From the IMG/VR virus record IMGVR_UViG_3300008740_000600, positions 1 through 64,000 of that record: DNA of 64,000 nucleotides; one strand, written 5' to 3'. Positions 9,339 to 49,941 of the stretch are shown piece after piece; the first letter of the stretch is position 1, and the number at the start of each line of letters is the position of its first letter. This stretch comes from a virus. The notes beneath the pieces were generated by a model, which was given only the letters and a program-made list of their open reading frames with translations, did not search any database and was not told the DNA's origin. The position numbers and the translations under genes were made by a program.

Positions 9339-9339
9339 G

Positions 9340-9368: not shown

Positions 9369-9434
9369 AGTATATTATAGAAAAATAAAGTGTAAAACCC
9401 TTGATTTTACTGGATTTTTAACGCCAATAAATGG

Positions 9435-9462
9435 TTGACAAATCCATACAATATGCTATAAT
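9435..9462 (+). promoter_or_regulatory. Sigma70-type promoter (TTGACA-N16-TATAAT)
   Basis: TTGACA 9435-9440 and TATAAT 9457-9462, spacing 16, preceded by ATGG. Second tandem promoter; its start falls about 20 bases before the AAGGAGT ribosome site of the 9492 gene. Confidence 0.82.
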
Positions 9463-9491
9463 AATAGTAGTTAATTAAGGAGTATGATTAT

Positions 9492-9677
9492 ATGAAACAG
9501 ACAATATATGCTACAATTTTTATTTTTAGCATGGTTTTTGCCGTTGGTTCAATAGACGGTGGATACCACGGAGTACCAGTAAATGACAATTGGTTAGGAT
9601 TTTTTATCTTTACAGCCATTGGTATACTATTTGCTGTCTTAACAATTAAATCACAGTCAGAGACTCAGGAGGAGTAA
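9492..9677 (+). CDS. Small two-helix membrane protein (61 aa)
   Basis: Two hydrophobic helices (TIYATIFIFSMVFAVG and WLGFFIFTAIGILFAVLT) joined by a short polar loop, with an acidic tail. A strong AAGGAG lies upstream. It is coupled by TAATG to the subtilase, so it may help place or restrain that protein, though this is only inferred from position. Confidence 0.6.
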   Translation: MKQTIYATIFIFSMVFAVGSIDGGYHGVPVNDNWLGFFIFTAIGILFAVLTIKSQSETQEE

Positions 9678-12600: not shown

Positions 12601-12733
12601 AGAAACAGACGTTGGTATAAGTGCTCAATATAATAAAGGAGACTTTAACTTTACTGTAGGCGGTACACAACGTTATGGTACTGTTTCAGGAAACGATTAC
12701 ACTATTCAAACAACATTTGGTTGGAAGTTTTAA
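9677..12733 (+). CDS. Lipoprotein subtilisin-like serine protease with C-terminal beta-rich domain
   Basis: A 1,018-residue protein. A lipobox (FVLTAC, Cys then Gly-rich linker) predicts an exported lipoprotein. A long Thr-rich region follows, then an S8 subtilase domain with the full triad: Asp426 (GVIDTGI), His457 (GHGTHVAG), Ser687 (GTSMSAP), plus the oxyanion Asn in NSAGNQG. The last 250 residues or so are beta-rich and end in GWKF, like autotransporter proteases such as SphB1. Expected role: cleavage of surface proteins at the outer membrane. An enzyme of this size and type is rare in phages. Confidence 0.88.
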   Translation: MKLTYHIKGILLGSLVFVLTACGGGGGSGPTGVTLGPGTGNSAMDILGGNIGTNIAAVDGALSTLANINGISAMVDADSGQFTTIKNGFEAIKTLKTQVDALSATDKQLLQNMDVWVEMSGCNGGQVGCGKTMSILDAINLGSKMYDRYYEPYKEFWTNGAENGKVDDSTSAFAGIKAKVEADEQLSKNDLINMINSDGADKTVTDTNYNIVIYTETSEVIIGTDLTKTVTVSEETVAYNADTVSDYWPTDFDSTTATGCNCTKTYINTTTATQTYDSYREDAVTYKRIDTVYTYSDGSVTTIPGNPEVTNTVTGTTKERNITFSNHQTVSQYVSTSNNGSGGDNNDSDDSDNTANVDYTDTDENLGTKTTGLPTNPDTFINQEFLMGYVDNGYNNAYRDQLKEIKINYAWARGWTGKDSKVGVIDTGINTSHQEFTNSIAETKDFTGYGVTDAHGHGTHVAGTIAANRDGEGMVGVAFDSKLYIVKNTHNGYGGGHFGEAMEWLKTHKVDVANISQNNNYDYRISTTGGTIYTLIDANKGIYKFNDSYIKNGHTYTTPESWLQNGYGDAVTEANTWSTYMAGSEIVVVNSAGNQGLPFAAQPGSLAPEVDANGNLKLDGRMIVVGNYRLYDGARLGNHAGTICHNVINDVCQDQYSVSDFFIRAPGYGKSASHTTNDGYAWMSGTSMSAPLVTGSIAVLHQMWPHMTGKNLVRLILETADDTYSGYSVALDGHGRLDMDAATQPVGATGIPTDGRMSGYTISSNGYTAGTNTVPSSVSSLIIETDNTSFNREWLVPIAKASVPVDTAFHDYKSYAGLVTLPVNNDFAVHLKENSMDSLAVTYDGTTVGYMKEDGQYLGRYFNGFFGIGQTETAFVQKSNNFDIADNTTLTTNVNLGYTTVDTVSNSLINKSDDLMSYGWSATTNTKLNDEWSVSGFVAQPVTVFSGSMNINAPTSRSGDNVSYTDTDWTQVAKVETDVGISAQYNKGDFNFTVGGTQRYGTVSGNDYTIQTTFGWKF

Positions 12734-12734
12734 T

Positions 12735-13163
12735 ATGTTTAAAACTCTTATGTCAAAGTTAGGACGATATAGAATTATCAAAGATCGCATAGGAGATGAT
12801 ATTTACTTGGAAAGGTATTACTTGTTTTTAAGAGACCGTAATACTTTTCCATTTAATATTTTCTTACATAAATTTAGAAAAAGTGATCCTGATGATTTAC
12901 ACGACCACCCTTGGAATTATAGAACTATAGTTATTAAAGGTGGTTATTGGGAAACTACACCAGAAGGTAAATTCTGGAGAGGTGTAGGACATTATAGATT
13001 TTGTGAAGCAAGGAGTTTACACAGAATAGAACTAGAAAAAGATGTTGACTGTTGGACATTATTCATCCCAGGAAAATATAAACGTGAGTGGGGGTTTATG
13101 ACAAATAACAAATGGGTTCAATGGGAAGAATATCTGTATAACAGGAAAAAAGAAAGTGCCTAA
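12735..13163 (+). CDS. Cupin-like phage protein (142 aa), paralogue of 63129-63608
   Basis: The ATG at 12735 directly follows the subtilase stop; a longer frame would overlap that gene. The core FNIFLHKFRKSD...LHDHPWNYRT...GGYWE...GVGHYR...HRI...FIPGK carries several His in a cupin-like order (HDHPW and a later His), suggesting a metal-binding jelly roll. A second copy with the same order lies near the right end on the other strand. Function unknown. Confidence 0.6.
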   Translation: MFKTLMSKLGRYRIIKDRIGDDIYLERYYLFLRDRNTFPFNIFLHKFRKSDPDDLHDHPWNYRTIVIKGGYWETTPEGKFWRGVGHYRFCEARSLHRIELEKDVDCWTLFIPGKYKREWGFMTNNKWVQWEEYLYNRKKESA

Positions 13164-13635
13164 TAAAAAATTTTACAGTTGGGCTGACATTGAAAAAATG
13201 TGTAACCAACTTATTAATCAACTTTATAAAGACGATTGGAAACCAGATTACATAGTAGGAATTACCAGAGGTGGTAATGTACCTGCTACTATTTTAAGTA
13301 ACATGACTGGAATTAGATGCGAAGCATTAAAGGTTGCTTTACGAGATGGAGAGTCTGGTAAGTCTGGAGATAGTATTGAATGGATGGCTCAAGATGCTTT
13401 AGAAGGTAAAAAGATTTTAATAGTAGATGATATAAATGATACTGGTGCTACATTCAAATGGATTAGCAACGACTGGAAACTTAACGGGCAAGATAATGTT
13501 CGTTTCGCTACACTAACTGAAAACTTATCAAGTGAATTTGATGGCGTTAACTATTGGTGTGATGAAGTTAACAAAGCCGAAAAAGATGTTTGGTTAGTTT
13601 ACCCATGGGAAAACGTAGGTGAATATGATGGTTGA
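13156..13635 (+). CDS. Type I phosphoribosyltransferase
   Basis: GTG start at 13156 overlapping the previous gene. The PRPP-binding loop is visible as KILIVDDINDTGATF, preceded by IVGITRGGNVPA, the order seen in Gpt/Hpt-like purine phosphoribosyltransferases. It likely joins a purine base to PRPP to make a nucleotide. The substrate is not certain. With GMP reductase elsewhere in the window it could adjust guanine pools that feed the preQ0 pathway (inference). Confidence 0.8.
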   Translation: MPNKKFYSWADIEKMCNQLINQLYKDDWKPDYIVGITRGGNVPATILSNMTGIRCEALKVALRDGESGKSGDSIEWMAQDALEGKKILIVDDINDTGATFKWISNDWKLNGQDNVRFATLTENLSSEFDGVNYWCDEVNKAEKDVWLVYPWENVGEYDG

Positions 13636-13879
13636 AGAATTTAAAGAATACAAATGTACATACACAACAAAATGGCCAATTGATGAATATGGGCGACTTG
13701 GTGGTATGTATAGTTTATCCGATTTACCAATATCTGGATATGTTGAATTAGAACGCGATGGCTTTTTGGTAAAACAAGACTCCAAACGTGGGTTATACGA
13801 GGTACGAGATGCTGAAAAGAAGTTTGTTACACGGTTGGTGGAGCAGGCCAAAGTTAAAAATATAGAAGAGGTTGAATGA
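13625..13879 (+). CDS. Small phage protein (84 aa), unknown
   Basis: ATG 13625 follows GGTG and overlaps the phosphoribosyltransferase end. A soluble protein with a beta-rich middle (ISGYVELERDGFLVKQD) and an acidic helical tail. No recognised motif. Confidence 0.5.
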   Translation: MMVEEFKEYKCTYTTKWPIDEYGRLGGMYSLSDLPISGYVELERDGFLVKQDSKRGLYEVRDAEKKFVTRLVEQAKVKNIEEVE

Positions 13880-13883
13880 TTAG

Positions 13884-13891
13884 GATAAATA
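13884..13891 (+). promoter_or_regulatory. Candidate late promoter box (GATAAATA)
   Basis: GATAAATA fits NATAAATA and lies directly before the sigma70-type -35 of the queD promoter, so queD may be read both early and late. A chance match is possible. Confidence 0.35.
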
Positions 13892-13893
13892 TA

Positions 13894-13923
13894 TTGACAG
13901 TCCCTAGTACTATATGTTATAAT
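13894..13923 (+). promoter_or_regulatory. Sigma70-type promoter of queD (TTGACA-N18-TATAAT)
   Basis: TTGACA 13894-13899 and TATAAT 13918-13923, spacing 18. Predicted start near 13930 leaves a 70-base leader before queD. Confidence 0.85.
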
Positions 13924-13929
13924 AGTGCT

Positions 13930-14000
13930 ATGATAAACGAGGTCTACAAGGGATCGCCCCTCACTAAATATTCCGCCCCCTCTAACCGGAGGATAAAAAA
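13930..14000 (+). other. queD leader with competing pairings around the ribosome site
   Basis: The leader is unusually C-rich. CCTC at 13979-13982 can pair with GAGG inside the GGAGG ribosome site (13988-13992), hiding it. An upstream GAGG (13939-13942) can pair with either that CCTC or the CCTC at 13959-13962, which would free or trap the site. The stems are only 4 bp. It does not match the preQ1-I consensus, so a riboswitch is only a possibility. Confidence 0.3.
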
Positions 14001-14489
14001 ATGAAAAGACAATGTAAATATGTCTCTACGAAGACGTATCATCAAAAGTTTCCTGTAGCATACAGGCAATGGAGAGCAGACAGCCATTGTAATATTGTAC
14101 ACGGGTACGCCTTAAGTTTCCATTTTGAATTCGAATCTGATGTTCTAGATGTTAGAAATTGGGTTATGGATTTTGGTGGCTTAAGACCTTTAAAAGAATT
14201 ACTTGAAGATTGGTTCGACCACACATTTTTAGTAGCACTAGATGATCCAAACTATAAAGACTTTAAAAAGTTAGGAGAATTAGGATTAGCAAAAATTACA
14301 GAAGTTGAGAAGACTGGCTGTGAAGGACTTGCTGATTGGTTATACGAATACATCAACACAATCTTCTTAAAAGATTATGGCGAACAAGATAGGATATGGT
14401 GTTGTAGAGTAGAAGTTAGAGAAACTGATAGTAATATGTCGTATAGACAAGGCCATAGAGAAGATGGCGACTTTGAATCAATACATTAA
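14001..14489 (+). CDS. queD: 6-carboxy-tetrahydropterin synthase (QueD family)
   Basis: A 162-residue T-fold enzyme. Motifs: RADSHCNIVHGYALSF (Cys and zinc His; the second His of the usual HGH is Tyr, as I recall for an alphaproteobacterial-type subgroup), MDFGGLRPLK, WFDHTFLVA and VRETDSN (catalytic Glu). It converts dihydroneopterin triphosphate from FolE to 6-carboxytetrahydropterin. It has its own promoter and structured leader. A perfect GGAGG lies before the ATG. Confidence 0.85.
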   Translation: MKRQCKYVSTKTYHQKFPVAYRQWRADSHCNIVHGYALSFHFEFESDVLDVRNWVMDFGGLRPLKELLEDWFDHTFLVALDDPNYKDFKKLGELGLAKITEVEKTGCEGLADWLYEYINTIFLKDYGEQDRIWCCRVEVRETDSNMSYRQGHREDGDFESIH

Positions 14490-14504
14490 TATAGGAGATT
14501 ATAA

Positions 14505-15104
14505 ATGGCATTAATACCAATAGTTATTGAACAGACAGCAAAAGGTGAACGTAGTTACGACATATACAGTAGACTACTTAAAGATCGTATAATAATGTTA
14601 AGTGGTGTTGTAGAAGAAAATATGGCAAATGCTGTCGTGGCTCAAATGTTATTTTTAGAAAGCCAAGACCCTAAAGGTTTAATTACAATTTATGTAAATT
14701 CACCAGGAGGTTCTGTTACGGCAGGTATGAGCATTTATGACACTATGACATTTATTAAACCTGAGATATCAACAGTAGTAATGGGCCAGGCTTGTTCAAT
14801 GGGTTCATTATTAGCAAGTGCTGGAACAAAAGGTAAACGTTATGTATTACCTAACTCAAGACATATGATTCATCAACCTTTAGGAAGTGCTAAAGGTCAA
14901 GCAACTGATGTTGAGATACAAGCTAATGAGTTATTACGTTGGAAGAAAGTATTAACAGAAATTTATGTTAAAACTACAGGCAAGGATTATAAAACATTAG
15001 AGTCTGATATGGAACGAGATAACTTTTTAACAGCCGACGAAGCCGTTGCTTATGGACTTGCTGATAAAATCGTAGAGGAGAGAAAAGACGATGAAGGATC
15101 CTAA
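14505..15104 (+). CDS. clpP: ClpP protease subunit
   Basis: A 199-residue ClpP with the serine triad Ser98 ([12 protein letters not shown]), His123 (MIHQPLG) and Asp172 ([11 protein letters not shown]), and the NSPGGSV turn. Length is typical of the mature-like bacterial subunit. ClpP forms a double heptamer that degrades proteins delivered by ClpX or ClpA. ATAGGAG precedes the ATG. A phage ClpX with an IGF loop and a ClpS lie in the same window, so a complete virus-encoded protease is likely. Confidence 0.95.
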
Positions 15105-15276
15105 AATTTCAAAATTAGTAAAAGAGCTAAAAGAAGTTGTAGTTAACTTAAACAAAGTTAATGAAAATCTGAGAAGTGAAGGTTGTTATTTTAGAATTGA
15201 TATGGACGACAAAGCAGTTTATTCAATTCAGAACTTTACACAATCAGTAAAGTATGACGAGGAACTAAATGAATAA
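15091..15276 (+). CDS. Small helical phage protein (61 aa), unknown
   Basis: ATG inside the last codons of clpP, so coupled to it. The first half is a Lys/Glu-rich helix with heptad-like spacing ([22 protein letters not shown]). No recognised family; an adaptor for ClpP is possible only by position. Confidence 0.5.
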
Positions 15277-15496
15277 AGAGCTAGGATATCGAATGCTAGT
15301 AAAAAAATTAACAACACAACCTAAAGATACGAGCAAAGGACACTTTTACGTTAGTTTAGTTAAAAGTGTTTTTAGAATAATAACAGCTATATTATTAATA
15401 TATGTTGGTTGGCAATATAGTTTCTTTTGGTTACAAGTAGCTGGTGGTACATTATTAATTGCTGAAGCATTAGGAATAGTAGAGGAGTTAGTATGA
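15269..15496 (+). CDS. Small membrane protein (75 aa)
   Basis: A polar N-terminal third is followed by two close hydrophobic helices (RIITAILLIYVGWQYSF and LQVAGGTLLIAEALGIV). It overlaps both neighbours (8 and 4 bases). Function unknown. Confidence 0.55.
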   Translation: MNKELGYRMLVKKLTTQPKDTSKGHFYVSLVKSVFRIITAILLIYVGWQYSFFWLQVAGGTLLIAEALGIVEELV

Positions 15497-16368
15497 AATT
15501 AAGATATTCTGAAGCATTCTATAGTATACAAGGAGAAGGACGTTATGTAGGAGTACCTAGTGTATTTTTAAGAACGTTTGGATGTAATTTTAGATGTAAA
15601 TTATTTGGTCGTGATAAATCAGAATCATATCCAGGGTTAAATAATGCTAATCCGGAAGTTGAAGCTATTATTAATAATATAGATCAATATAACGAATTTA
15701 AAGAACTTCCTATAGTACATACAGGTTGTGATACTTATGCTTCGATATATCCGCAGTTTAAAAGATTTATGAAAGACGATAATATTGATGGTGTAGTAGA
15801 TTACTTACTATCATTAACACCGAATGGTAAATGGATGTTAGACAATGGTCAAGATATTCATTTAATATTTACAGGTGGTGAGCCGTTGTTAGGGTGGCAA
15901 CGAGCTTATATAGACTTACTGGAACACCCTAAAATGAAAGGACTAAAGAATGTTACATTTGAAACAAATACCACACAGGCTCTTAGACCTGAGTTTAGAG
16001 AGTATCTCGAGTCTCAAAGAAAGTTTACAGTCACTTGGTCTTGCTCCCCTAAACTCTCAGTATCGGGAGAAAGCTGGGCAGACGCTATTAAGCCTGATAT
16101 CGCTCGTTCTTATTATGACGTCCCTAGGACTAATCTTTATCTTAAATTTGTTGTCGCTGACACTGATGACGTTGAAGAAGTTGATAGAGCTGTTAGGGAG
16201 TACCGCAACGCCGGTGTTGACTGCCCTGTCTACACTATGCCGTTGGGTGGTCGATACGATGAATATAAAGCAAATGCTCAAAGAGTGGCAAAACTGGCGA
16301 TGGAAAAAGGATGGAGATACACACCTAGACTCCATGTCGACATATTCGGAAATGCCTGGGGGACTTAA
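15493..16368 (+). CDS. queE: 7-carboxy-7-deazaguanine synthase (QueE, radical SAM)
   Basis: A 291-residue radical SAM enzyme that converts 6-carboxytetrahydropterin to 7-carboxy-7-deazaguanine. Motifs: FYSIQGEGRYVG, RTFGCNFRC (first two cluster Cys), a later HTGCD that probably gives the third, IFTGGEPLLG and FETNTT. The usual CxxxCxxC is split by an insertion of roughly 50 residues between the second and third Cys. GAGGAG precedes the ATG. It follows queD and clpP in the same direction. Confidence 0.88.
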   Translation: MKLRYSEAFYSIQGEGRYVGVPSVFLRTFGCNFRCKLFGRDKSESYPGLNNANPEVEAIINNIDQYNEFKELPIVHTGCDTYASIYPQFKRFMKDDNIDGVVDYLLSLTPNGKWMLDNGQDIHLIFTGGEPLLGWQRAYIDLLEHPKMKGLKNVTFETNTTQALRPEFREYLESQRKFTVTWSCSPKLSVSGESWADAIKPDIARSYYDVPRTNLYLKFVVADTDDVEEVDRAVREYRNAGVDCPVYTMPLGGRYDEYKANAQRVAKLAMEKGWRYTPRLHVDIFGNAWGT

Positions 16369-38746: not shown

Positions 38747-39676
38747 TTACGCGGCAACTGGAGCGGCTTGAAATCTTTTACCAAAAATATTCTCAGTAAA
38801 CAACGGCCAGTCAGCGTCTTTAGGATGCCATTCTTGTTTTTGTATTTTACCGTGTGAGAAATTCCAAATCCAGCTACCAACACAACAAGCTTCAGCATAA
38901 TGCCAAGCACTTGCTCCTTGTGTTGCCGGGATTCTTGTATAGTATATATCACATTGAGGAGCACCAAATTTTACACCAACTACATTACAAAATATATCTA
39001 AGTAACTGTCTGTGTGATTATAAAACTTTTTAGCATTTCTCACAATATCTCTATATCCCCTACTCAAGTACAACCAATTCATAGTATAATCATAAGCATG
39101 ATATGGAAGGTATAATGAATGTCCAATAGTTTCTGCTACATAATTTCTACTTCTTAAACTAACTTCTGTAAAACTGTCAGTACCACTATTAACAATATCC
39201 CTATATAATTCTGGATCTATATTAGGTGCTACGGCTGTTCTACCGTCCCACATATTTGGATTCATTCCTATATAATAATCTAGTCGATCAACTGTTGAAA
39301 AATCTAATGTCATAACTGCCGACATCATATCCATTAATCCTGAAAATACACCAACTCCATCTACTATATTCTTACCAGTACCATGAAACATATCAGTTCT
39401 ATTGATCGTTATAAGCGTATTATGGTCGGGTAAAGCGTTGGCTATAGCATGAGTTGTACCAAAATCACAATTAGTAACAATATAGTCGTGATTTTCAGCT
39501 ATTTCCGTTGGTGTGTAGTTAGCAAATGGTAAAGCGCCTTGGGATAGTGTTTTTCCAACTTGGGTATCATCAAACCAAGTACAAATTACATCAGTCGTAA
39601 ATCTATTTTTCTGCCTAGTAATAACATTCCTTACAGCAGACCCTAATTGACCGTTACATACTATTGCTATCTTCAT
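38747..39676 (-). CDS. Phage protein of unknown function, Rossmann-like start (309 aa)
   Basis: Begins MKIAIVCNGQLGSAVRNVI, a first strand and Gly loop like a nucleotide-binding Rossmann fold, followed by DYIVTNCDFGTTHAIANA. The C-terminal half is Trp/Tyr-rich (NWLYLSRGYRDIVRNAKKF). It could act on a sugar or cofactor. First gene of its run; a bidirectional gap with a late box lies upstream. Confidence 0.45.
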   Translation of the reverse strand: MKIAIVCNGQLGSAVRNVITRQKNRFTTDVICTWFDDTQVGKTLSQGALPFANYTPTEIAENHDYIVTNCDFGTTHAIANALPDHNTLITINRTDMFHGTGKNIVDGVGVFSGLMDMMSAVMTLDFSTVDRLDYYIGMNPNMWDGRTAVAPNIDPELYRDIVNSGTDSFTEVSLRSRNYVAETIGHSLYLPYHAYDYTMNWLYLSRGYRDIVRNAKKFYNHTDSYLDIFCNVVGVKFGAPQCDIYYTRIPATQGASAWHYAEACCVGSWIWNFSHGKIQKQEWHPKDADWPLFTENIFGKRFQAAPVAA

Positions 39677-39696: not shown

Positions 39697-39704
39697 TATA
39701 AATA
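39697..39704 (+). promoter_or_regulatory. T4-type late promoter (TATAAATA)
   Basis: Exact TATAAATA on the plus strand in the 110-base gap, 83 bases before the first of two small plus-strand membrane genes that are otherwise isolated between minus-strand genes. Confidence 0.6.
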
Positions 39705-39786: not shown

Positions 39787-39954
39787 ATGGATGGTGAATT
39801 AATAGTACTAATATCAAAATTATGGCCTATATTTTTAGGTTTTATAACACTAGTAATAGTGTTAGCCAAAATGCACAGCTCAATAACAGTATTAGAAGAG
39901 AAAGTTAAAGTAGCTTTTGAACTAATTAACAAATTAAACTCAGAAAAAAAGTAA
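39787..39954 (+). CDS. Small membrane protein (55 aa), holin-like topology
   Basis: GAGGG lies eight bases before the ATG. One strong transmembrane helix (LWPIFLGFITLVIVLAKM) is followed by a coiled-coil helix (ITVLEEKVKVAFELINKL). It sits behind a late promoter and beside another tiny membrane gene, so a role in lysis or late membrane remodelling is plausible. No family match claimed. Confidence 0.55.
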   Translation: MDGELIVLISKLWPIFLGFITLVIVLAKMHSSITVLEEKVKVAFELINKLNSEKK

Positions 39955-39977: not shown

Positions 39978-40133
39978 ATGACATCAAGAAGCGAATATGA
40001 ACAGCGAGCCTGGGATTTACTTAAAAAACAATCTGGTGGTAGAATTTGGACCGGTTGCGATCTATGTAAAACTTTCTGTTTGGGAATGATAGTTGGTTTC
40101 GTAATAACACTTATTGCTACGACTATTTTGTAG
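39978..40133 (+). CDS. Small membrane protein (51 aa)
   Basis: AAGGGA precedes the ATG. A basic N-terminal helix (EYEQRAWDLLKKQSGG) leads into a hydrophobic C-terminal helix (CLGMIVGFVITLIATTIL) with three nearby Cys. The 3' end overlaps the converging cyclase gene by 11 bases. Probably cotranscribed with the gene at 39787 from the late promoter. Confidence 0.5.
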   Translation: MTSRSEYEQRAWDLLKKQSGGRIWTGCDLCKTFCLGMIVGFVITLIATTIL

Positions 40134-42015
40134 TAGCTACAAACACCCCGTCCCAGCCTATAGGTGGCGGTGTAGATTTAAAACCTTTAATTCGATCAGC
40201 TATTATAACATAATAACTATCTAATTCACCACTGAATTTGCCCATAAGGTTATCTATAGCGTCTTCACAAAATTTCCAATTTTGTTTAACGTAATTTTCT
40301 CGTAATTTGTTATGTAAATTAACCAAATTTTCCAATGTTGGCAATTCTTCAAATTTAACAATGTCAGGATCTAATACAGTATAGATAGCTACTGGTTCTG
40401 TTTTACCTTTAACAGCAATTTTGTCTAACTCTAAGACTGTATGCTTATCAGATAAATTTTTAGCTGTTTCTTCTCCAAATAATATTTTCACGCCATACCC
40501 TTTTGTTTGTCCTTCTAGTCTTGCCGCTAAATTAACAGCATCACCTAAACAACTATAATCAAATCTTTGATCTGATCCCATATTACCAACAACTACATCA
40601 CCAGTATTAAGTCCAATACCTATGTTAATTGGTAACTTGTTTTCTTCTATTAACTGAGTATTTAACTCCTTTAATCCTTTTAACATACTAAGACTGGTAT
40701 CTACGGCCTTATCAGCTTGTTGTTCAACATCTAATGGAGCATTCCAAAAAGCCATAATACAATCACCCATATATTTGTCTACAGTACCTTCGTTCTTCAT
40801 AATAATATCTGTCATAGGCGTTAAGAACCTGTTGACAAGTACTGTTAAACCCTGTGGATTGGTTTTGAATTGTTCTGATATAGGAGTAAAACCTCTTATA
40901 TCACAGAATAATAAAGTTAACTGTCTTGTATCGCCTCCTAACTTTAACAAACTAGGATTTTTCTGGAGCTTTTTAACAAGTGCCGGAGCTAGATAATGTT
41001 CAAATTGTTTTTTAATTTGTAACTTTAATCTATTTTCTCTAGCAAAGTTATTGTATATCAAATGAGCCCATACTATTGAACCCATTATAAGAGGTTCAAT
41101 CCAACTTATCAAATACAAATACGTTTGGAATACATAATAGCTTGTCCAAAAACAAATACCAGTATATATTACTATAGGCACAACAGACCATAGCACACCT
41201 AAACGTGGTATTAATAATAAAAAGATTAAACAACTTGTAATTAAAAATGCCCACTCAACGTTAGGCATCCAAGTAGGTCTGCTAATGTACTTTCCAGACA
41301 ATAATGTTTCTGTACTAATGGCCATTGCTTCATGTGTATTCTTAAGACCATTAGGTGTTGTAATAAACGTTGAACCTTTAAACGTTGTACCAATGAATAC
41401 AATTTTACCTTGTACAGAAGACCAATCTTTGTCTGTATAATCTATTCTAGGTATGTGATGTCTAAAGTCAATCCATATATGCTCTTGATCAGGCACAGGA
41501 AACTTAATAACGTCCATTATAACTTTAGGAATAGAATTTTCTAATGGCAATTTTCTTATTGTACCATCAATATCAACAGGCACTTCAACATTACCTATTG
41601 CTAATGCTTTACGTTCTATGCTTATTAGGTTTTTAACATCATTAGTTTCTGTTAAAATAACAGGATACTTTGATATCATCTTAAGGAACATCTCATCACC
41701 GCCAAGTCTATCCTTTTGTGTAAAGACAACTTGTAATACAACCAATGAAGCACCTTTTTTATAAGCATTAACAATTATACGACCTAATTGATCTCGCTTC
41801 CAAGGCCATTGTCCTTTTTTCTCTAATGCTAAATCAGATATATCTAACAGAACGATACTTTTAGAGTCATACTGATTGCCAAAAGTTTGATAATAATCAA
41901 ACGTTTTTAACTCTAGGGTTTGTAGTGGAGGTGGGTTATATGCTTTTAACCCTAATAACAAAATTACTGTTATGACTACTGCCCAGGTACTGGTCAATAT
42001 CCTGTTCATATACAA
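40123..42015 (-). CDS. CHASE2-domain class III adenylate/guanylate cyclase
   Basis: A 630-residue membrane enzyme. One N-terminal helix (res 11-23) leads to an extracytoplasmic CHASE2 sensor (about 40-240, with IVLLDISD and GQWPWKRDQLGRI), then three helices (about 254-320) and a cytosolic class III cyclase domain. Metal Asp372 (FCDIRGF) and Asp418 (KYMGDCIMAF), base-selecting Lys414, and Asn495 and Arg499 (NLAARLEG) are all present; Lys414 favours ATP as substrate. Last gene of the csgF-csgG-curlin-FecR operon. An intact sensor-cyclase is very unusual for a phage. Confidence 0.92.
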   Translation of the reverse strand: MYMNRILTSTWAVVITVILLLGLKAYNPPPLQTLELKTFDYYQTFGNQYDSKSIVLLDISDLALEKKGQWPWKRDQLGRIIVNAYKKGASLVVLQVVFTQKDRLGGDEMFLKMISKYPVILTETNDVKNLISIERKALAIGNVEVPVDIDGTIRKLPLENSIPKVIMDVIKFPVPDQEHIWIDFRHHIPRIDYTDKDWSSVQGKIVFIGTTFKGSTFITTPNGLKNTHEAMAISTETLLSGKYISRPTWMPNVEWAFLITSCLIFLLLIPRLGVLWSVVPIVIYTGICFWTSYYVFQTYLYLISWIEPLIMGSIVWAHLIYNNFARENRLKLQIKKQFEHYLAPALVKKLQKNPSLLKLGGDTRQLTLLFCDIRGFTPISEQFKTNPQGLTVLVNRFLTPMTDIIMKNEGTVDKYMGDCIMAFWNAPLDVEQQADKAVDTSLSMLKGLKELNTQLIEENKLPINIGIGLNTGDVVVGNMGSDQRFDYSCLGDAVNLAARLEGQTKGYGVKILFGEETAKNLSDKHTVLELDKIAVKGKTEPVAIYTVLDPDIVKFEELPTLENLVNLHNKLRENYVKQNWKFCEDAIDNLMGKFSGELDSYYVIIADRIKGFKSTPPPIGWDGVFVATTK

Positions 42016-42031
42016 TACTTATTTGTCTAAA

Positions 42032-44584
42032 TTACTTGATTTGTATGATTGTGATTGTAGCTCTACTACCGGCTGTACCGGCTGTTGTTGCTTGTGTTTC
42101 TTCTTCTTGTATAATCATAACGTCAAAATTTTCTATTGAATTGGTCGTTATATATGCTCTATGATTACTATAAGTTCTATCTATTCTTTTATAACCGTTT
42201 TCACCGGCATAAGCGTCAACATTACCTGTATTACCATAAGTTGAATATCTACCAGTTTGTGTTACGGAAGATGATGAACCATCTCCAGCTGTAGTAGTAA
42301 CTGTTTGTGTTATGTCACCTGTTTCATAGTTAATTGTTTCACCACTTGCTGTTACTAAAGTTGTTGCGCCACTATTATCAACCCATTCTGTACCACAGGA
42401 TTGATTTGCTTTATCCCAATAGTAACCCATATAGATACAATCAGGTTCTGTGTCAAGACTTGCTAGATACTCTATTTCCCACTCATCGATTTCAGTAGTT
42501 TCAAATGAATATTCCTCTTCAATACTTAATTCTTCGTATTCTGCCTCCCAGTTATCATATGTACCTTGCTGTTCCCATTCCCAAAAAGCCTCCCAGTAAA
42601 TATCCCATTCTTCCCAACCCCATTCTGTTATGTACTTGTTTTTTATTTCAGATATTGTCCAAGGTTTTGGAGCATCTTTAGTATCACCGTACCATTGTGG
42701 ATTTAAATATAAGTCTTTAAATAATTGTTTAGATTCTTTTGTCCATGAATCGTATTTTGTATTTAGATCCCAATCCATTTGTATCCATTCATTAGTTTCA
42801 TCAATGTATTGTTGTGTACACCAAGATGGATCACACCAATCTTCGTTACCTGTCAGTAATTGTGGACCGTCTTGTGAGTAATAATCATTATACGCTTCTT
42901 CGTATTCTACTACTCCTTCGTCAACAAATATTTCTTGGTCATCATCTGCCCAGACATCTAGAGTAGTATCTTCTGTTACATCACCTTCAAACTTCTCGAC
43001 ATCATCAAATACGTCATCTGTAACGTCAATTGAATCATCTGTTTCCCAATCCTCGGAATAATCTTTCCAATCAGTATCTAATCCATATTTTGCCATTGTG
43101 GCATCTTGTTGTTCGTATAAAGCGTCCCAATCAACACTATCCCAGTCAACATCATTCCAATCAATACTTTCCCAATCACAATTATTTTCACAGCCTATAG
43201 CATCATAATACGCTTGGTCCATTTCAGCCCACATCTTTTTACTATCTTCGTAATCCATTTTAACTTCACCTGAAGCGTCCCAAACAGTTACTTGATCGTT
43301 TTCATCTACCCAACCATATTCGTCATCGTAGGCTTCATCGTCCCATTGATCGTAATATGATGTATCAACTTCTGTGTCAATTGAATCATCTACAATTATA
43401 TCTTCTGTTACTGCTTTTGTTTGAACTGTATCTGAAGTAATAAAATCCTCGTTGGTCATTATAATTTCAACTATATCAGTAGTATCTAAAACTTGATCAT
43501 CGCCCTTTATATCAAAATTAACATCAGAATCAATAGTGGCTTTGTCATTTATTAAACTTTCTTCTAAGTCTGAAGCAACTTCATCTGTTACTTCTACGTT
43601 AAAGTCTTTTGTTTCTACTTCTATTATTTCAATCTTGTCAAGAACTTCGTCATTTTGTTCGAACGTGTCTAACTCTACTTTAACTTCTTCTTGTGTTTCA
43701 AATTCTATAACTTCTTCTTTTTGTTCTTCTTGTATAAGTTCTTTAGTTTCTTCTTTTTGTTCGATTTGTTCAATTTCTTTAGCATCATCAACTTGTTCAT
43801 CTTGTACTAATTCTTTATCCTTAACTTCAACTTGTTCATCTTGTACAAGTTCACTGTCAATTTCTACTTCTTCATTTAAATTTTCTATTTTTTTAACTTT
43901 TGTTGGATTAGATTGCTCCTCAAACTCTTCGATAACTTCTTCGTTTGTATCTAAATCAAATAATTCTTGTTTAGCATTGTTATCTAATGGTGATGGAGGA
44001 GAAGGCATTAAGTTATCTGATAGAACTGTAACACTTGAATATGCTGTACTAATCATTGATGATCCAGCATCATTTTTAACTGTAACTTGTCCTACATTAC
44101 CATTACTATCAGGTAATAATGTAATTGTTGTTTTACCATTAGGATCTACTGTACCTGAAAATGCTGTACCTTGTACTGTTATAACTGCTGATGGTGTAAC
44201 CATAGCAACTTCACCGCCTAATTTTGATATGCTACCACTTTCGTATGTAAATGTACCAACGTTAACTGCTATCGCTAATGCTACTTCTATAGGAACTGCT
44301 GTTGTGTCAAAGGCAAACTCATCAATTACCATTTCACTATTAGGTGCTACTGTAACTTTTGTACCATCAACAAACTCAATATTCATGGCGCCGTCTTCAC
44401 CTGTTTGTAAAAAGTCATCCATGTACAATGGAAACTCAGGATCGTTAATTGTTATATTTTCAAAATCTCTTTCTACCCAAGTTGTACCCATTTTTTGTTT
44501 AACTTCGCCCACTTGAGGACCACCCCAAGCATACGTTGAAGTAAACATTATAAAACAAAGTATAAAGGTAAAAAGTCTTTTCAT
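42032..44584 (-). CDS. FecR-domain secreted protein with long acidic, Trp-rich region
   Basis: 850 residues. A signal peptide (MKRLFTFILCFIMFTSTYA) precedes a FecR domain (about 25-190: VDGTKVTVAPNSEMVI, ITVQGTAFSGTV). Residues 220-450 are extremely acidic with a 13-residue repeat containing ELVQDEQV. The next stretch is rich in Trp with Asp or Glu (NDVDWDSVDWDALYEQQ). A Thr/Ser-rich end follows. FecR modules often bind or signal at the envelope. Beside a CHASE2 cyclase this matches a bacterial gene pairing. It lies 1 base from the curlin-like gene. Confidence 0.85.
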   Translation of the reverse strand: MKRLFTFILCFIMFTSTYAWGGPQVGEVKQKMGTTWVERDFENITINDPEFPLYMDDFLQTGEDGAMNIEFVDGTKVTVAPNSEMVIDEFAFDTTAVPIEVALAIAVNVGTFTYESGSISKLGGEVAMVTPSAVITVQGTAFSGTVDPNGKTTITLLPDSNGNVGQVTVKNDAGSSMISTAYSSVTVLSDNLMPSPPSPLDNNAKQELFDLDTNEEVIEEFEEQSNPTKVKKIENLNEEVEIDSELVQDEQVEVKDKELVQDEQVDDAKEIEQIEQKEETKELIQEEQKEEVIEFETQEEVKVELDTFEQNDEVLDKIEIIEVETKDFNVEVTDEVASDLEESLINDKATIDSDVNFDIKGDDQVLDTTDIVEIIMTNEDFITSDTVQTKAVTEDIIVDDSIDTEVDTSYYDQWDDEAYDDEYGWVDENDQVTVWDASGEVKMDYEDSKKMWAEMDQAYYDAIGCENNCDWESIDWNDVDWDSVDWDALYEQQDATMAKYGLDTDWKDYSEDWETDDSIDVTDDVFDDVEKFEGDVTEDTTLDVWADDDQEIFVDEGVVEYEEAYNDYYSQDGPQLLTGNEDWCDPSWCTQQYIDETNEWIQMDWDLNTKYDSWTKESKQLFKDLYLNPQWYGDTKDAPKPWTISEIKNKYITEWGWEEWDIYWEAFWEWEQQGTYDNWEAEYEELSIEEEYSFETTEIDEWEIEYLASLDTEPDCIYMGYYWDKANQSCGTEWVDNSGATTLVTASGETINYETGDITQTVTTTAGDGSSSSVTQTGRYSTYGNTGNVDAYAGENGYKRIDRTYSNHRAYITTNSIENFDVMIIQEEETQATTAGTAGSRATITIIQIK

Positions 44585-44585
44585 G

Positions 44586-45704
44586 TTAGCAACCGTTTGT
44601 CACGGTCGCTGTTACATCACCTGATTGTGAACTTCTATCAAAAGAATATGTACAAGTATCTGAACCGTCTTGAGTGAAATTTAATGTATAATCGTATATG
44701 CTATCACCACTTACTGTTATGTTAGCTGTATTACTACCGCCTGTTTGTGAAGCATAAACTGTAGCATTTGATGTATAAACATTGAGATACATAGTATTGT
44801 TACCACCGGCTTGGTAAGCACCAATTCTATTAGTACTACCATTAACTCGTAAATACATTTTATTTAAATCACCTATTTGCATTAATCTATTAAAGCCGGC
44901 ACTATAAGCAGATGGTGTATAATCAATTCTATTGCTTGACGATCCATTAAATAACTCAATAAGCAAGTAATTACTATCTCCTCCTGTTTCTGTCTTTATA
45001 GAATTACTAGATCCAATTATATAAAAGTCAATTGACGCCAACGAAGCATCAGCAACTGCTCCGTGATTGTGTGAATTGTAATGTCCTACAGCCGCATTGG
45101 CTGTTGTATTCATGCCATCGGCACCGTCATTCATCATGTAATCTACATAATTGTCATCGCCATAGATATAAACATATAAATGATGTCCACTACCTGAATT
45201 GTTTTCAGTTTTAAATAACAGGGCGTTATCATTGCCGTCGATATCAATGTCGTAATTTTGATTTGCTACATCAGAGCCATTAGGAGAATCTTGAATAGTA
45301 ACAATATTGTCACCACCTCTGATATCAACATCTAACCACCAACCTGTGTCGCCGGTGTCGTCCATATCTAAGTTTATTCTGTTGTCACTACCTTTAATAT
45401 TGACGTCTAGTGTACAGTTAGTACAATCAAATGTAGAGTATTGATAAAAGTCATTAGTAAATCCAACCTGTCTAATATAAACAGAGTTTCCTGTACCTGT
45501 AACTTCAAATTGATCACTGGTAGAATTACCGACCCAGTTATCGGTGCCGTCTTGCTTTATGTAAATTGTTTCACCAGCGCCTGCGCCAGAAGTATCATCT
45601 ACTAAAAGGTATACGTTATTTCCGTTACTATCTGCTAATACAAGATTAGTGCTGGAAATAATAAGCAATAGGCTTAATGTAAGAATCCTCACTAGTGTCT
45701 TCAT
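44586..45704 (-). CDS. Curlin-like repeat secreted protein
   Basis: 372 residues with a signal peptide (MKTLVRILTLSLLLIISST). The mature part is Asn/Gly/Ser/Asp-rich with beta-strand repeats of the kind xVYxxQxGxxN: SVYIRQVGFTNDF, RLMQIGDLNKMYL, RIGAYQAGGNNTMYL, TVYASQTGGSNTANI. These resemble curlin (CsgA/CsgB) repeats, which form amyloid, but are more widely spaced. GGAG at good spacing supports the ATG. It overlaps the CsgG gene by 59 bases. Likely the substrate of the CsgG/CsgF pore. Confidence 0.75.
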   Translation of the reverse strand: MKTLVRILTLSLLLIISSTNLVLADSNGNNVYLLVDDTSGAGAGETIYIKQDGTDNWVGNSTSDQFEVTGTGNSVYIRQVGFTNDFYQYSTFDCTNCTLDVNIKGSDNRINLDMDDTGDTGWWLDVDIRGGDNIVTIQDSPNGSDVANQNYDIDIDGNDNALLFKTENNSGSGHHLYVYIYGDDNYVDYMMNDGADGMNTTANAAVGHYNSHNHGAVADASLASIDFYIIGSSNSIKTETGGDSNYLLIELFNGSSSNRIDYTPSAYSAGFNRLMQIGDLNKMYLRVNGSTNRIGAYQAGGNNTMYLNVYTSNATVYASQTGGSNTANITVSGDSIYDYTLNFTQDGSDTCTYSFDRSSQSGDVTATVTNGC

Positions 45705-46695
45705 CGCTATCTCCTGAATTAATTATTTCTTCTTCGACAGGTGTTTCTTCTAATGTTTCCGTTTCTATTGCTTCTTCTTTGACAGTTTCTTCTTCTGTTT
45801 CAAGGGCGTTCCATTCAGCTTCTTCGGCCGCCTTTTGAGCCGCCTCTTCGGCCGCTTTCTTTTCTAATTCTATTCTAAGTAATTCTTCTGCTTCAGCGTC
45901 TAATTCTTCTTGAGTAGGTCCAAACTTCCATAACTCTAATTTCGCACCTTCTTTAATTAATTCTACAACGCCTGCTTCAATAGATTTTCTTACAGCATAA
46001 GTTACTGGCTCATTTCTGGCGTAACCGGCTTCAATTTCAACTAACATTGTGTCAGCATCAACATACCTAAATACATCTCCACCTGTACTTGATGAGTATA
46101 TAGTTTTTTCAATAGTAGTAGAAATAATAACTTCGCCTGTTTGTACATTAATCAAACGTAAAATAATAGACATAATATCTTGTCTATATTCTTTGTGAGC
46201 TTGTATACCTAATACTCTTGCTCCAAATCCGCCTGATATAATATCGCTATCGTACCCTATTACACCGCCTGTAATATAAGCACCTGCGAATAGTAATGCT
46301 GGCAATGGTTGAGCATCCTCACCATCTGCCATTTGTCTTGTAGTTCTAATTAATTTACGTTCTTGTAGTAAAGATGCTAAACTATGACGTTCAACAACCC
46401 TAAACCATTTACCTTTTCCAGCATCTTGTAATGCTTTAATTAGTATTTGATAAGAACCTTGTGTTACAGCACTTGACATCGAAGCATAGTTACCGCCTGG
46501 CTTCTTTTGTCCAGTCATATCACCAAAATCGTAAACAGCAATAATAATTGGTGCTCCTTCTGGTTGTGTTATAGTTTCTAGTTCAGAAAAAGCTGGTTTT
46601 TGAACTTTGTGATCCCATCTTTCAGCTGTCGCGGCACAACCTGCCACGAAGCCAACTAATAAAAGCATCGAAAGTATTCTATATATTTTATTCAT
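45646..46695 (-). CDS. csgG: CsgG-like curli secretion pore lipoprotein
   Basis: 349 residues. Lipobox VGFVAGC with signal peptide, then the CsgG core: IIIAVYDFGDMTGQKKPGG, the YASMSSAVTQGSYQIL stretch (pore-lining), FRVVERHSLASLLQERKLI, GGVIGYDSDIISGG and VNVQTGEVIIS-like text. CsgG forms a nonameric outer-membrane channel for curlin subunits. A long Glu/Ala-rich C-terminal extension (AEEAAQKAAEEAEWNALE) is not typical. One base separates it from csgF. Confidence 0.93.
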   Translation of the reverse strand: MNKIYRILSMLLLVGFVAGCAATAERWDHKVQKPAFSELETITQPEGAPIIIAVYDFGDMTGQKKPGGNYASMSSAVTQGSYQILIKALQDAGKGKWFRVVERHSLASLLQERKLIRTTRQMADGEDAQPLPALLFAGAYITGGVIGYDSDIISGGFGARVLGIQAHKEYRQDIMSIILRLINVQTGEVIISTTIEKTIYSSSTGGDVFRYVDADTMLVEIEAGYARNEPVTYAVRKSIEAGVVELIKEGAKLELWKFGPTQEELDAEAEELLRIELEKKAAEEAAQKAAEEAEWNALETEEETVKEEAIETETLEETPVEEEIINSGDSDEDTSEDSYIKPIAYYFQH

Positions 46696-46696
46696 G

Positions 46697-47164
46697 TTAG
46701 CTGTTATCCTCTTTAGGCATTGTAAATGTAGTTACTGTACCATCGGATTCTGTTACTGTTACTACAACATTACCTGTACCTGAAGGTGTAGTCCAAACAA
46801 CTGTTTCACCATTTGTTCCTGTAAATGTTCCTGAATCTTGTTGGTTTCCGTCTGATCCAAATACGTTATCTGTAATTTGTTTAGCCAAAGCTGTGTAAAA
46901 TCTTGCTTCTAGATTTGCTTTGAATTTAGCAAACGCTGTAGCCTTGATTTCATCTTCTAAAAGCTTCGCGTCAGCTCTTTTCTTTGCCTCAATGGCATCT
47001 TTTCTAGTCTTTTCTATGTTTTCAATAGTCAAATAATGAGATGATTGTCCTTCTCCACTGAAGGAAGGGCTACCAAACTTATAAGTCAGCTCACTCGCGT
47101 TAGCTGGTATAGAAAAGAAGTTATAAATGATGTATATTGACAGTATTAAAAAAATTCTATTCAT
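46697..47164 (-). CDS. csgF: CsgF-like curli assembly factor
   Basis: 155 residues with a signal peptide ending near NASELTYKF. The mature start SELTYKFGSPSFSGEGQSS matches the CsgF N-terminal segment that plugs into CsgG. A charged helix follows, then a beta domain (GETVVWTTPSGTGNVVVTV) ending in FTMPKEDNS. CsgF caps the CsgG pore at the cell surface. First gene of the operon, behind a TATAAATA late box. Confidence 0.88.
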   Translation of the reverse strand: MNRIFLILSIYIIYNFFSIPANASELTYKFGSPSFSGEGQSSHYLTIENIEKTRKDAIEAKKRADAKLLEDEIKATAFAKFKANLEARFYTALAKQITDNVFGSDGNQQDSGTFTGTNGETVVWTTPSGTGNVVVTVTESDGTVTTFTMPKEDNS

Positions 47165-47210
47165 AATCTTAACTCACTCCGATTGATTGATTTTACACTT
47201 ATTATAATCT

Positions 47211-47218
47211 TATTTATA
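47211..47218 (-). promoter_or_regulatory. T4-type late promoter of the curli-like operon (TATAAATA)
   Basis: Exact TATAAATA on the minus strand, 46 bases before the csgF ATG. A looser sigma70-like pair (TTGTAA, 16 bases, TATAAT) overlaps the same region, so early expression cannot be excluded. Confidence 0.6.
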
Positions 47219-47259
47219 ATATTTACAAGCTAAAAGCTAAGGATAGAAGATAAAATTTT

Positions 47260-47982
47260 TTAAGATGTTCCGGGATCTGTACGGTTTAACTGCTCGAAAC
47301 CCCAGGCACGTTCACAGCACCACATACAGTTATTAACAAGCTCATGAGCATCGGTATTATAATGTGAAAAACACCTTCCTACTCTTTCGTCTGTACAGCT
47401 ATGGGTTGGTAATATGAGCTCTTCAGCATCTAATTTATAGTACATATCTATAATATGATACTTGTAAAGAGGCAACAACGGGCATATAATTTTGTCATGG
47501 CCTATTACTTCAGGGTCCATTCGCCATGGTCTAGAACCCCTAGCATAATCAACTAAATGACGTTCGGGGAGCCCAAAATTAAACCCTAGTGGTACTTGAT
47601 GATTCAGCCCATCATATATTAATTTGAATCTTTCAGATTGTATTAAAAGTCTAGTAGCAGGTACACTATCATTGTCAGTCGGTTCTCCAATTAATTCAGG
47701 ATCATCTAATCTACTATATGGTAATAATTTACGAATCTTTTTATGTACGTTTTTAGAATGAGTCTCGGCATCGTCTGCCAACCGCGGAACACAAAACGTT
47801 TTAATTCTTTTTTCTGGGTTAAATTTCAATAAGCAATATAATAAAATGGCGCTATCCATACCACCAGATACAAGTAAACCTACTTCGTCGATATCTTTAG
47901 GAATTTTAACATTGATTACTCGTCTATCCCAATCAGGGCCAACAATAAAGTTACTTGGATCAATCATTTGTAAAGAGTTCAT
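47260..47982 (-). CDS. queC: QueC-like 7-cyano-7-deazaguanine synthase (PP-loop ATPase)
   Basis: 240 residues from ATG 47982. The PP-loop is LLVSGGMDSAILL (SGGMDS at 39-44). The C-terminal Cys set THSC...GRC...NNCMWCCERAWGF fits the zinc site of QueC with an insertion. QueC turns 7-carboxy-7-deazaguanine into preQ0 using ATP and ammonia. FolE, QueD and QueE are in the same window, which strengthens the call. The divergent spacing leaves room for another PP-loop activity. Confidence 0.75.
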   Translation of the reverse strand: MNSLQMIDPSNFIVGPDWDRRVINVKIPKDIDEVGLLVSGGMDSAILLYCLLKFNPEKRIKTFCVPRLADDAETHSKNVHKKIRKLLPYSRLDDPELIGEPTDNDSVPATRLLIQSERFKLIYDGLNHQVPLGFNFGLPERHLVDYARGSRPWRMDPEVIGHDKIICPLLPLYKYHIIDMYYKLDAEELILPTHSCTDERVGRCFSHYNTDAHELVNNCMWCCERAWGFEQLNRTDPGTS

Positions 47983-48862
47983 CAAAATTATTTATTGGTT
48001 CTATAACATCTTGGGGATTATAGTTCATAATTAATAACTCTGTACGTTCTGGTCTTATACCATCGGCTGGTTCACCAGTTTTTGTTAAGGCACCTTCTTG
48101 TTTTAATAATCCATTTCTTGTAAATGTTACTTCTTCGTGCCAGTGAAACTTATCACGTGGTAGCATACTTTCAAGCTCATTAAAATAGTAATAACTTAAA
48201 GCCCATTTACCTTTTGTAGTTTTAAGTTGTTCTAATAACTCTAAATGATCTAGTTTATTAAATTCATCTTCAGTGTAATAACTTTCAAGTTTAAAATAAG
48301 GTGGGTCAATATAAAAAAATGTATCAGCACTATCATATTTTCTAATTAAATCTCTACAATCAACATTTTCTACTGTAAGATGTTTTAGTTTATCTAAATA
48401 TCTTACTTGCTGAAATTTTTCTGTCCAAGTTTTAAATTTATCTTTGTAATTTGTTTTATATATTCTAGACTTAGGTGTTAAACCAACTCCTCCAGCAAAT
48501 ATCTGTAACTGTAATAACATATATTTTGCCGCCAAGTCATAATCTGGTATGGGGAACTGCTGACCGTAAATAGCAAATACTTCATCTCTGTATTCTAAGA
48601 ACTTATCAGCATCTTTTATATCTTTATAATAGCTTTTACAAGTTTGTTCCATCTTTACTGGATCTGTACTGCTACATAAAAATACATTTGCCAAATGTCT
48701 ATTAAAATCATTATAAACATTTGTGTCAACAGGAAACTTACCACTCATCCAGTATAGCCACATGGCTCCACCGAATACTTCTACATACGTTTTACATTCG
48801 CTTGGAAATAATGGATCAATCCATCTACTATGAAGTTTCTTACCACCTATATACGGAAACAT
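47960..48862 (-). CDS. D12-class N6-adenine DNA methyltransferase (Dam-like)
   Basis: 300 residues. Motif I is YVEVFGGAMWLYW after FPYIGGKKL, and motif IV is FFYIDPPYF (Asp186-Tyr189). This matches the T4 Dam/D12 class, which methylates adenine N6, often in GATC. With the 7-deazaguanine genes it suggests that the phage DNA carries two kinds of protection from restriction. The gene overlaps queC by 23 bases and touches guaC. Confidence 0.9.
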   Translation of the reverse strand: MFPYIGGKKLHSRWIDPLFPSECKTYVEVFGGAMWLYWMSGKFPVDTNVYNDFNRHLANVFLCSSTDPVKMEQTCKSYYKDIKDADKFLEYRDEVFAIYGQQFPIPDYDLAAKYMLLQLQIFAGGVGLTPKSRIYKTNYKDKFKTWTEKFQQVRYLDKLKHLTVENVDCRDLIRKYDSADTFFYIDPPYFKLESYYTEDEFNKLDHLELLEQLKTTKGKWALSYYYFNELESMLPRDKFHWHEEVTFTRNGLLKQEGALTKTGEPADGIRPERTELLIMNYNPQDVIEPINNFDELFTND

Positions 48863-49941
48863 TATTCACCTATTGTTGTACTTTCATAAACCGTGTTTAA
48901 CTGATTTGATACTTGTATAAATGTAGCACACTTAGAAAGTTGTTTTAATCTATTTGCTCCAACATAGGTACAGGCACTTCTAACACCGCCAAGTATATCT
49001 TGAATCGTATCTCCTACAGCACCTTTATATTCAACTAGTACTGTTCTACCTTCACTACTGCGATATTGTTTTAGTCCACCAAAATGAAGTTCATTTGCTG
49101 ACCTAGAACTCATGCCATAAAATTTTACAAACTGTTTTTCTTCTGTTACACCAACTTCATTTGTAAGATATTGTTTAGTAATTATTTCTCCGCCGCCCTC
49201 ATCATGCCCTGCTAACATACCACCAAGCATAATAAAATCAGCACCTCCGGCAAAAGCCTTAACAACATCTCCTGGACAAATACAGCCACCATCAGCAATA
49301 ATATGTCCTCCTAAACCATGTGCCGCATCGGCACATTCAAAGACTGCTGAAAGTTGCGGATAGCCTACGCCAGTTTTAAGCCTAGTAGTACAAACACTTC
49401 CAGGACCAATACCAACTTTAACAATATCAGCACCATTTAATATTAATTCTTGTGTCTGATCTGCTGTAACTACATTACCAGCAATAATAACAATTTGTGG
49501 AAATTTTTTTCTAAAAGTTGAAATGAAATCTAAAAACCTTTCTGAATAACCGTTTGCTACATCAATACAAACATATTTTAATTTTTCATCTACTTTGTCG
49601 TATACTTCTTTAAACTTGTTTAAGTCTGGATCTAAGATACCAATACTCATAGCAACATATTCTGTTCTAGCAGGAGAATCAAAAAAGTCTATTAATTCTT
49701 CTGCTGAATACATTTTAACTAAACAAGTAAAAACTTTTTGCTCTGCTAATGTATCAGCCATTTCCATTGTGCCAACACCATCCATATTACTTGCCATAAT
49801 AGGAACACCATTATACTTGTTATGACTCTTAAATGTAAACTCTCTTGTAAGTTCTACGTCTTTTCTTGAACCTAGTACACTTCTTTTTGGTCTTAGCAAT
49901 ACACTATTAAAATCTAATTTAATATCTGGTTCGATTCTCAT
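48862..49941 (-). CDS. guaC: GMP reductase (IMPDH/GMPR family)
   Basis: 359 residues. The core [21 protein letters not shown] has Cys184, matching the catalytic Cys of GMP reductase (about 186 in E. coli), and [15 protein letters not shown] and [11 protein letters not shown] follow. No CBS domains are present, as expected for GuaC. It converts GMP to IMP with NADPH. In a phage that makes preQ0 from GTP it may shift purine pools. GTG/ATG coupling with neighbours. Confidence 0.88.

Follow-up and report, generated by a model that had tools for sequence, protein, structure and literature searches.

A curli-type secretion module with FecR-domain and CHASE2 adenylate cyclase genes in a jumbo-phage-like virus lineage

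Described curli modules and the locus on the virus contig

The csgF and csgG genes were reported in pelagimyophages (PMC7029224), and curli genes accompanied by FecR and adenylate cyclase (AC) genes have been described in podoviral and myoviral pelagiphages, transcripts included, with metatranscriptomes showing expression of these type VIII secretion (T8SS) genes (PMC9599517). A curli operon was also described in the methylophage Melnitz (MZ577097), for which clumping was not seen and a pore for lysis was proposed (PMC9004378). Both cultured phages, HTVC008M and Melnitz, carry the order csgF-csgG-curlin-FecR-curlin-AC. No functional test of a phage curli module was found in the literature text.

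Related genes are also known from bacteria. The curli operons of Alphaproteobacteria (Rhizobium, Roseovarius, Sphingomonads; L084-L116) resemble the locus described here in having csgF-csgG pairs, curlins and no CsgE, an absence already reported for this class (PMC3521004); they differ in that no FecR or CHASE2 cyclase gene lies within about 10 kb, apart from one Rhizobium, and in that their CsgG proteins form a separate clade. CHASE2 sensors are joined to FecR in the BiofilmReg biofilm operon of Burkholderia, where the sensor is a kinase (PMC5192318), and act through an outer-membrane protein, NsrA, in the case of the S. meliloti cyclases CyaD and CyaK (PMC13001267). Both share an inner-membrane CHASE2 sensor with our locus, but neither is joined to a curli exporter. 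The holdfast anchor HfaABD of Caulobacter combines a CsgG-like lipoprotein with two other components, one a small amyloid and one a large protein of the cell surface, and is not known to include a CsgF.

The locus lies on the IMG/VR virus contig IMGVR_UViG_3300008740_000600 (66,668 bases), most of which is covered by the window, that is, the whole stretch of 64,000 nucleotides that was analysed. On the minus strand, csgF, csgG, a curlin-like gene, a FecR gene and a CHASE2-cyclase gene follow each other head to tail with spacings of +1, -59, +1 and +16 nt, the last becoming 22 nt if the cyclase starts at an ATG two codons inside its TTG start codon. The preliminary description had listed these same five genes and gaps, and both hold, with the Pfam families confirmed. 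It had also correctly placed csgG and csgF in pelagimyophages, but had taken the whole set to be new, while the set was already published (PMC9599517) and is present in HTVC008M and Melnitz. The linked csgF, csgG, curlin, FecR and AC genes that make up the published pelagiphage module are all found on this phage contig. The possibility that the contig is bacterial or chimeric, which that description had named as fatal to its reading, was rejected: the virus record, the phage-like genes and an independent 204-kb phage contig with the same locus and flanks all argue against it. A chance assembly of genes is ruled out by the Pfam matches and by conservation across the whole locus.

Compared with the pelagiphage module (HTVC008M; PMC9599517, PMC7029224), the locus has the same families and order, csgF-csgG-curlin-FecR-(curlin)-AC, among late virus genes, and likewise lacks CsgE, CsgC and CsgD. 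It differs in having one curlin, a FecR protein of 850 aa (about 370 aa in pelagiphages), a jumbo-type backbone and a mosaic cyclase. In Melnitz the five families likewise follow one another in this order, but the phage is T4-like, with two curlins, a short FecR protein and a cyclase whose active site is damaged.

Gene products and the late-promoter-like box

The csgF gene (46697..47164, minus strand) matches PF10614 over its full length (4.7e-12) as well as phrog_35372; its product has a signal peptide, belongs to the family that caps the CsgG pore on the outside and keeps a pore-plug-like N-terminal segment, ELTYKFGSPSFSG. The csgG gene (45646..46695, minus strand; PF03783, 1.9e-48) encodes a lipoprotein with a VAGC lipobox from the family of nonameric outer-membrane pores, and the solved E. 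coli CsgG matches it at 4.5e-42, aligned over residues 2-259. In the constriction loop, KPGGNYASMSSAV replaces the KPYPASNFSTAV of E. coli CsgG, so the lining of the pore at its narrow point probably differs. An additional acidic tail of about 90 aa extends the C-terminus. The pore lipoprotein, the cap and a curlin-repeat substrate of T8SS are present, and the CsgE gate, which is not universal, is absent, as the preliminary description had stated: PF10627 had no match in any of 8 phage records, fragments among them.

The curlin-like repeat gene (44586..45704, minus strand) encodes 372 aa with a Sec signal. Its start overlaps the end of csgG by 59 nt, and an overlap of 47-89 nt is conserved among relatives. 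The protein has no Pfam match of its own; the NCBIfam CsgA model matches it at 3e-5, Curlin_rpt was matched in 23 of 39 relatives, and HHalign profile comparison with known curlins gave an E value of 3e-21. A repeat matrix built from bacterial curlins matched it at 4 sites, against 0.01 in shuffled sequences. An AlphaFold model, suggested at the outset as a check on this protein, predicted a beta-solenoid (AF2; pLDDT 75, pTM 0.78). A fold search with this model found nothing in the PDB at E <= 0.001, and among viral models the three best matches carry an annotation as curlin-associated proteins of phages (best E 3e-4). The protein is a probable T8SS substrate.

The FecR gene (42032..44584, minus strand; PF04773, 1.5e-5) encodes a protein of 850 aa in which AF2 and composition indicate a signal peptide, a FecR beta domain (residues ~24-188), a disordered acidic linker (190-404), a Trp/Asp-rich helical part (405-720) and a C-terminal beta-strand region (721-850; 42032..42424, minus strand). 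The predicted strands at 799, 820 and 842 in this last region have a curlin-repeat-like period of 21-22 residues, and the protein ends in ATITIIQIK, of which the ITIIQ ending is conserved. The period and the ending had suggested kinship to true curlin repeats; neither PSSM nor HHalign searches, negative control included, gave significance, and the kinship is retained as no more than an idea. The role of an iron anti-sigma regulator was rejected: there is a single FecR domain behind a signal peptide, and the N-terminal DUF4880 domain of such regulators had no match at E up to 1, so the architecture does not support the iron-regulator label. The modelled layout suggests a large, acidic protein that is secreted.

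The last gene (40123..42015, minus strand) encodes a class III adenylate cyclase of 630 aa with a CHASE2 sensor (Pfam CHASE2 5.9e-27, cyclase 1.6e-21). Its sensor and transmembrane half comprises residues 1-325 (41041..42015, minus strand) and its catalytic half residues 336-548 (40372..41010, minus strand). When the motifs FCDIRGFT, DKYMGD and FDYSCLGDAVNLAARLE were aligned to the solved CyaB, both metal-binding Asp residues, the Lys/Asp adenine pair and the transition-state Asn and Arg were all present, and the protein is probably a membrane sensor cyclase that makes cAMP. In the Melnitz cyclase (L002 9016-11067) other residues (SYDVLGDSVSTAAR) take the places of the transition-state Asn and of the Asp that specifies adenine, and the active site looks degenerate, indicating that the cyclase output is not needed in every phage. 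A cAMP receptor carried by the phage itself was considered and set aside; no cAMP-receptor domain was found in 8 phage records, so any output would have to work through a protein of the host. L051 has a second cyclase gene (13503-15428), kept outside the trees described below, next to a csg module.

The late box noted ahead of csgF in the preliminary description was confirmed as the T4-type late-promoter-like sequence TATAAATA at 47211..47218 (minus strand), 46 nt upstream of the csgF start. The same sequence stands 0-46 nt upstream of csgF in 69 of 82 related loci and upstream of csgG, curlin, FecR or AC in none of them, against a background frequency of 0.108 per kb per strand; the loci are mostly related, and the counts are not independent events. 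In the window, TATAAATA occurs 4 times against 13.6 expected. The box near csgF is not a chance occurrence, because so many csgF genes have one and the other module genes have none.

Beyond the end of the module, a single-TM protein of 55 aa with a LEEKVKVAFELINKL tail is encoded on the opposite strand (39787..39954, plus strand), converging on the cyclase gene and preceded at 82 nt by another TATAAATA (39697..39704, plus strand). About 50 of the 80 csg loci encode a version of it with 55-80% identity. Of 71 distinct copies of the gene, 36 adjoin the cyclase gene at its 3' end and 14 are found upstream of csgF; copies also occur with no csg genes in reach, and in L153 and L186 the gene adjoins a third CHASE2 type, again with no csg genes in reach. 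The gene is absent from Melnitz and HTVC008M and missing from many modules. Profile matches of the family are weak and mostly to DUFs, with one member matching Holin_BhlA at 0.024. The 55-aa protein may be a further partner of the module. A second small ORF (39978-40133) was dropped as not conserved.

Conservation, phage lineage and exchange with a sister phage

Conservation was assessed in 80 IMG/VR loci chosen by similarity to the window csgG, so that the counts describe csgG relatives and not all phages, and only loci whose contigs reach far enough were counted. No such locus lacked a module gene: the counts are 77/77 for csgF, 62/62 for curlin, 51/51 for FecR and 28/28 for the cyclase, the last lying downstream in 13 cases, divergently upstream in 14 and on both sides in 1. 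In the CsgG tree the viral proteins stand on one side and those of Alphaproteobacteria on the other (100/96); its bacterial sample consists of the returns of one scan, some branches are long, and L100, which has csgF, csgG and curlin, was left out. The viral proteins comprise two deep types, type A (HTVC008M and Melnitz, with a FecR protein of ~370 aa and two curlins) and type B (FecR 706-850 aa, one curlin), in which T4-like and jumbo phages are intermixed. Three sequences labelled as MAGs of Flavobacteriaceae, Pelagibacter and Saprospirales (L094, L095 and L105) carry phage-type csg modules within the viral CsgG clade and are, from this placement, probably misbinned phage DNA rather than bacterial donors.

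In 20 bacterial genomes with close CsgG proteins, 16 of 26 CHASE2 genes have a FecR-domain gene within about 3 kb. Only 1 of the 26 lies within 12 kb of csgG, from which it follows that the phage module brings together two sets of genes that bacteria usually keep apart. Rhizobium sp. BK313 (L116 18172-20762) is the one genome of the 20 in which a FecR-CHASE2 cyclase pair was seen in the neighbourhood of csgG, at a distance of about 8-11 kb.

The DnaB helicase, AAA ATPase, HNH protein and primase of the window phage are nearest to those of PA5oct-type or Phosso jumbo phages. Melnitz, HTVC008M and the majority of the other long csgG contigs in which a helicase was matched have a T4-type helicase, 24-29% identical to that of the window phage, which does not fall among the Kyanoviridae-type (T4-like) pelagimyophages. 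The closest relative found is a sister contig, L119 (G038), with a helicase 86% and an ATPase 93% identical; at 204,100 bases it shows that the lineage exceeds 200 kb. By these gene comparisons the window phage is a member of a jumbo-phage-like lineage, outside both phage groups of PMC9599517. No literature tying jumbo phages to curli genes was found in text searches of a library with few of the subscription journals. The window also contains a QueE-like gene (15493-16368, plus strand; phrog 3e-50), a gene for a weakly QueC-like PP-loop protein (47260-47985, minus strand) and a GMP reductase-like gene (48862-49941, minus strand; 48% to XacN1), which are a possible set for DNA or nucleotide modification.

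At the same locus L119 carries a module of type A (9312-16268), where the window has one of type B. The flanks are 73-80% identical DNA and take in the gene at 38747-39676, the 55-aa ORF and the 3' half of the cyclase gene; the blastn match ends at about 41032 and restarts at about 47383, leaving an exchanged cassette (41032..47383) with no blastn match between the two phages. Across it, csgG is 43% and csgF 36% identical. The breakpoint lies inside the cyclase gene, near AC residue 328: residues 336-550 are 87-95% identical to L119, residues 1-290 are 17-33% identical, and up to residue 240 identity to type B phages is mostly 57-92%. Between window and L119 the difference extends jointly over csgF, csgG, curlin, FecR and the CHASE2 half, while the catalytic half stays.

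The trees agree with this picture. That of the CHASE2 half splits cleanly into type A and type B plus window (98/98), the window's sensor half grouping with type B as its csgG and FecR do; in that of the catalytic half the window joins L119 (100/100). In a second mosaic case, the catalytic half of the type B loci L008 and L014 joins type A HTVC008M (100/99). On this tree evidence the catalytic half is taken to have moved independently of the module at least twice, and the CHASE2 type equals the csg module type in all phages compared. In an overall Mantel test the CHASE2 half tracks csgG and csgF better than the cyclase half does (for csgF, 0.905 against 0.677); as support for matching between CHASE2 and csgG or csgF this result was discarded, because it is driven by the A/B split and absent inside type B. 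The exchange pattern fits a sensor matched to its own secretion genes, and also fits plain linkage: co-exchange of the CHASE2 half could be due to its position beside the module, with crossovers in the most conserved (catalytic) DNA.

Possible function of the module and alternative readings

We propose that the module is a late-expressed outer-membrane exporter of curli-type fibres with its own transmembrane sensor, a reading to which we assign a probability of about 0.5. From the genes, their order and conservation, the cyclase residues, the late-type box and the exchange we infer that one late transcript from TATAAATA would yield CsgF, CsgG, curlin and the FecR protein, and here also the cyclase. 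CsgG would make the pore in the outer membrane, capped on the outside by CsgF; the curlin beta-solenoid would pass through this pore or be anchored there and cover the infected cell, as the acidic FecR protein possibly would too. CHASE2 of the inner-membrane cyclase could then read the periplasmic state of its own module, whether from the FecR protein, from curlin still awaiting secretion or from how the pore assembles, and sensing would change the cAMP output to the host. The S. meliloti cyclases with NsrA and the Burkholderia operon are precedents, and the published transcripts of pelagiphage T8SS genes also favour this reading. The likeliest benefit would be a changed surface of the infected cell, shielding it against rival phages or holding cells together, a suggestion that we hold weakly. 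The damaged active site of the Melnitz cyclase, the clumping not seen with that phage, the lack of a cAMP-receptor domain in the 8 phage records, the absence of CsgE and a FecR tail that is not statistically curlin count against the exporter. A gated pore, perhaps amyloid, and cAMP signalling by the virus had been proposed in the preliminary description; the T8SS gate genes, the curlin-type substrate, the conserved late-type promoter and the residues for cAMP synthesis favour part of that proposal, and the novelty it claimed for the set has fallen. Of the roles it offered (superinfection exclusion, clumping, lysis and nutrient uptake), clumping has the sole culture evidence found, from Melnitz, against it.

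Two alternatives keep part of this scheme. The CsgG-like lipoprotein might export the small curlin and the large FecR adhesin to form an adhesive patch, as in HfaABD, instead of long fibres. One small amyloid-type protein next to one very large secreted protein is what such an anchor would contain, the conserved ITIIQ C-terminus and the strand period of the FecR tail point the same way, and the HfaB model does match CsgG, at 2.4e-12. The CsgG model scores far higher (3e-46), however, CsgF accompanies every csgG in reach, and the FecR tail lacks curlin significance, so that we regard an anchor of this kind as unlikely. Nor do we think it likely that the FecR protein and the cyclase signal as a pair of their own and simply travel along with the curli genes. 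FecR-CHASE2 pairs are common on their own in bacteria, where 1 of 26 CHASE2 genes is near csgG, and cyclases of the third CHASE2 type stand apart from csg genes in L153 and L186; but the AC was found in all csg loci with enough flank, even where it had moved across, and it is the CHASE2 type, not the catalytic half, that always equals the csg type. The coupling to a sensor cyclase put forward earlier is upheld by this linkage and by the exchange of the CHASE2 half along with the secretion genes.

The remaining readings make CsgG a plain pore. A gated CsgG-CsgF hole that depolarises or weakens the envelope late in infection, with curlin and FecR as plugs or regulators, would develop the pinholin/secretin idea of the Melnitz authors (PMC9004378) and would suit the late-type promoter and a single-TM protein that often lies at the module edge and in one family member weakly resembles a holin. 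CsgG alone, in the outer membrane, cannot collapse the inner-membrane potential, the ever-present curlin and FecR are needless for a simple hole, and many modules lack the small protein; a role in lysis timing is accordingly very unlikely in our estimate. A pore for uptake of nutrients or cofactors, with FecR as an iron-responsive regulator, is the idea of the pelagiphage papers. The hosts inhabit poor waters, and the absence of CsgE leaves the pore ungated (PMC9599517). Here, though, the FecR protein has no DUF4880 and resembles a large secreted acidic protein, its domain also occurs in surface adhesins such as Lsa33, and curlin is always present, which makes uptake the least probable of the readings.

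Within the fibre-exporter reading, we suggest tentatively, and at less than even odds, that the CHASE2 cyclase is devoted to reading out the phage's own exporter, with the sensor half matched to each module type. What appears new, from the sequences compared, is a jumbo-type lineage with the module and, joined to the sensor half, a block swap at one locus. If the readout reading is true, the virus would gauge how far it has remodelled the surface of its host and report this to the host as cAMP, and phages would exchange CsgG-CsgF, curlin, FecR and the sensor in a single block but retain their own catalytic half. Curli modules are widespread among the phages of the ocean, and the junction at the boundary between sensor and catalytic halves makes the coupling directly testable.
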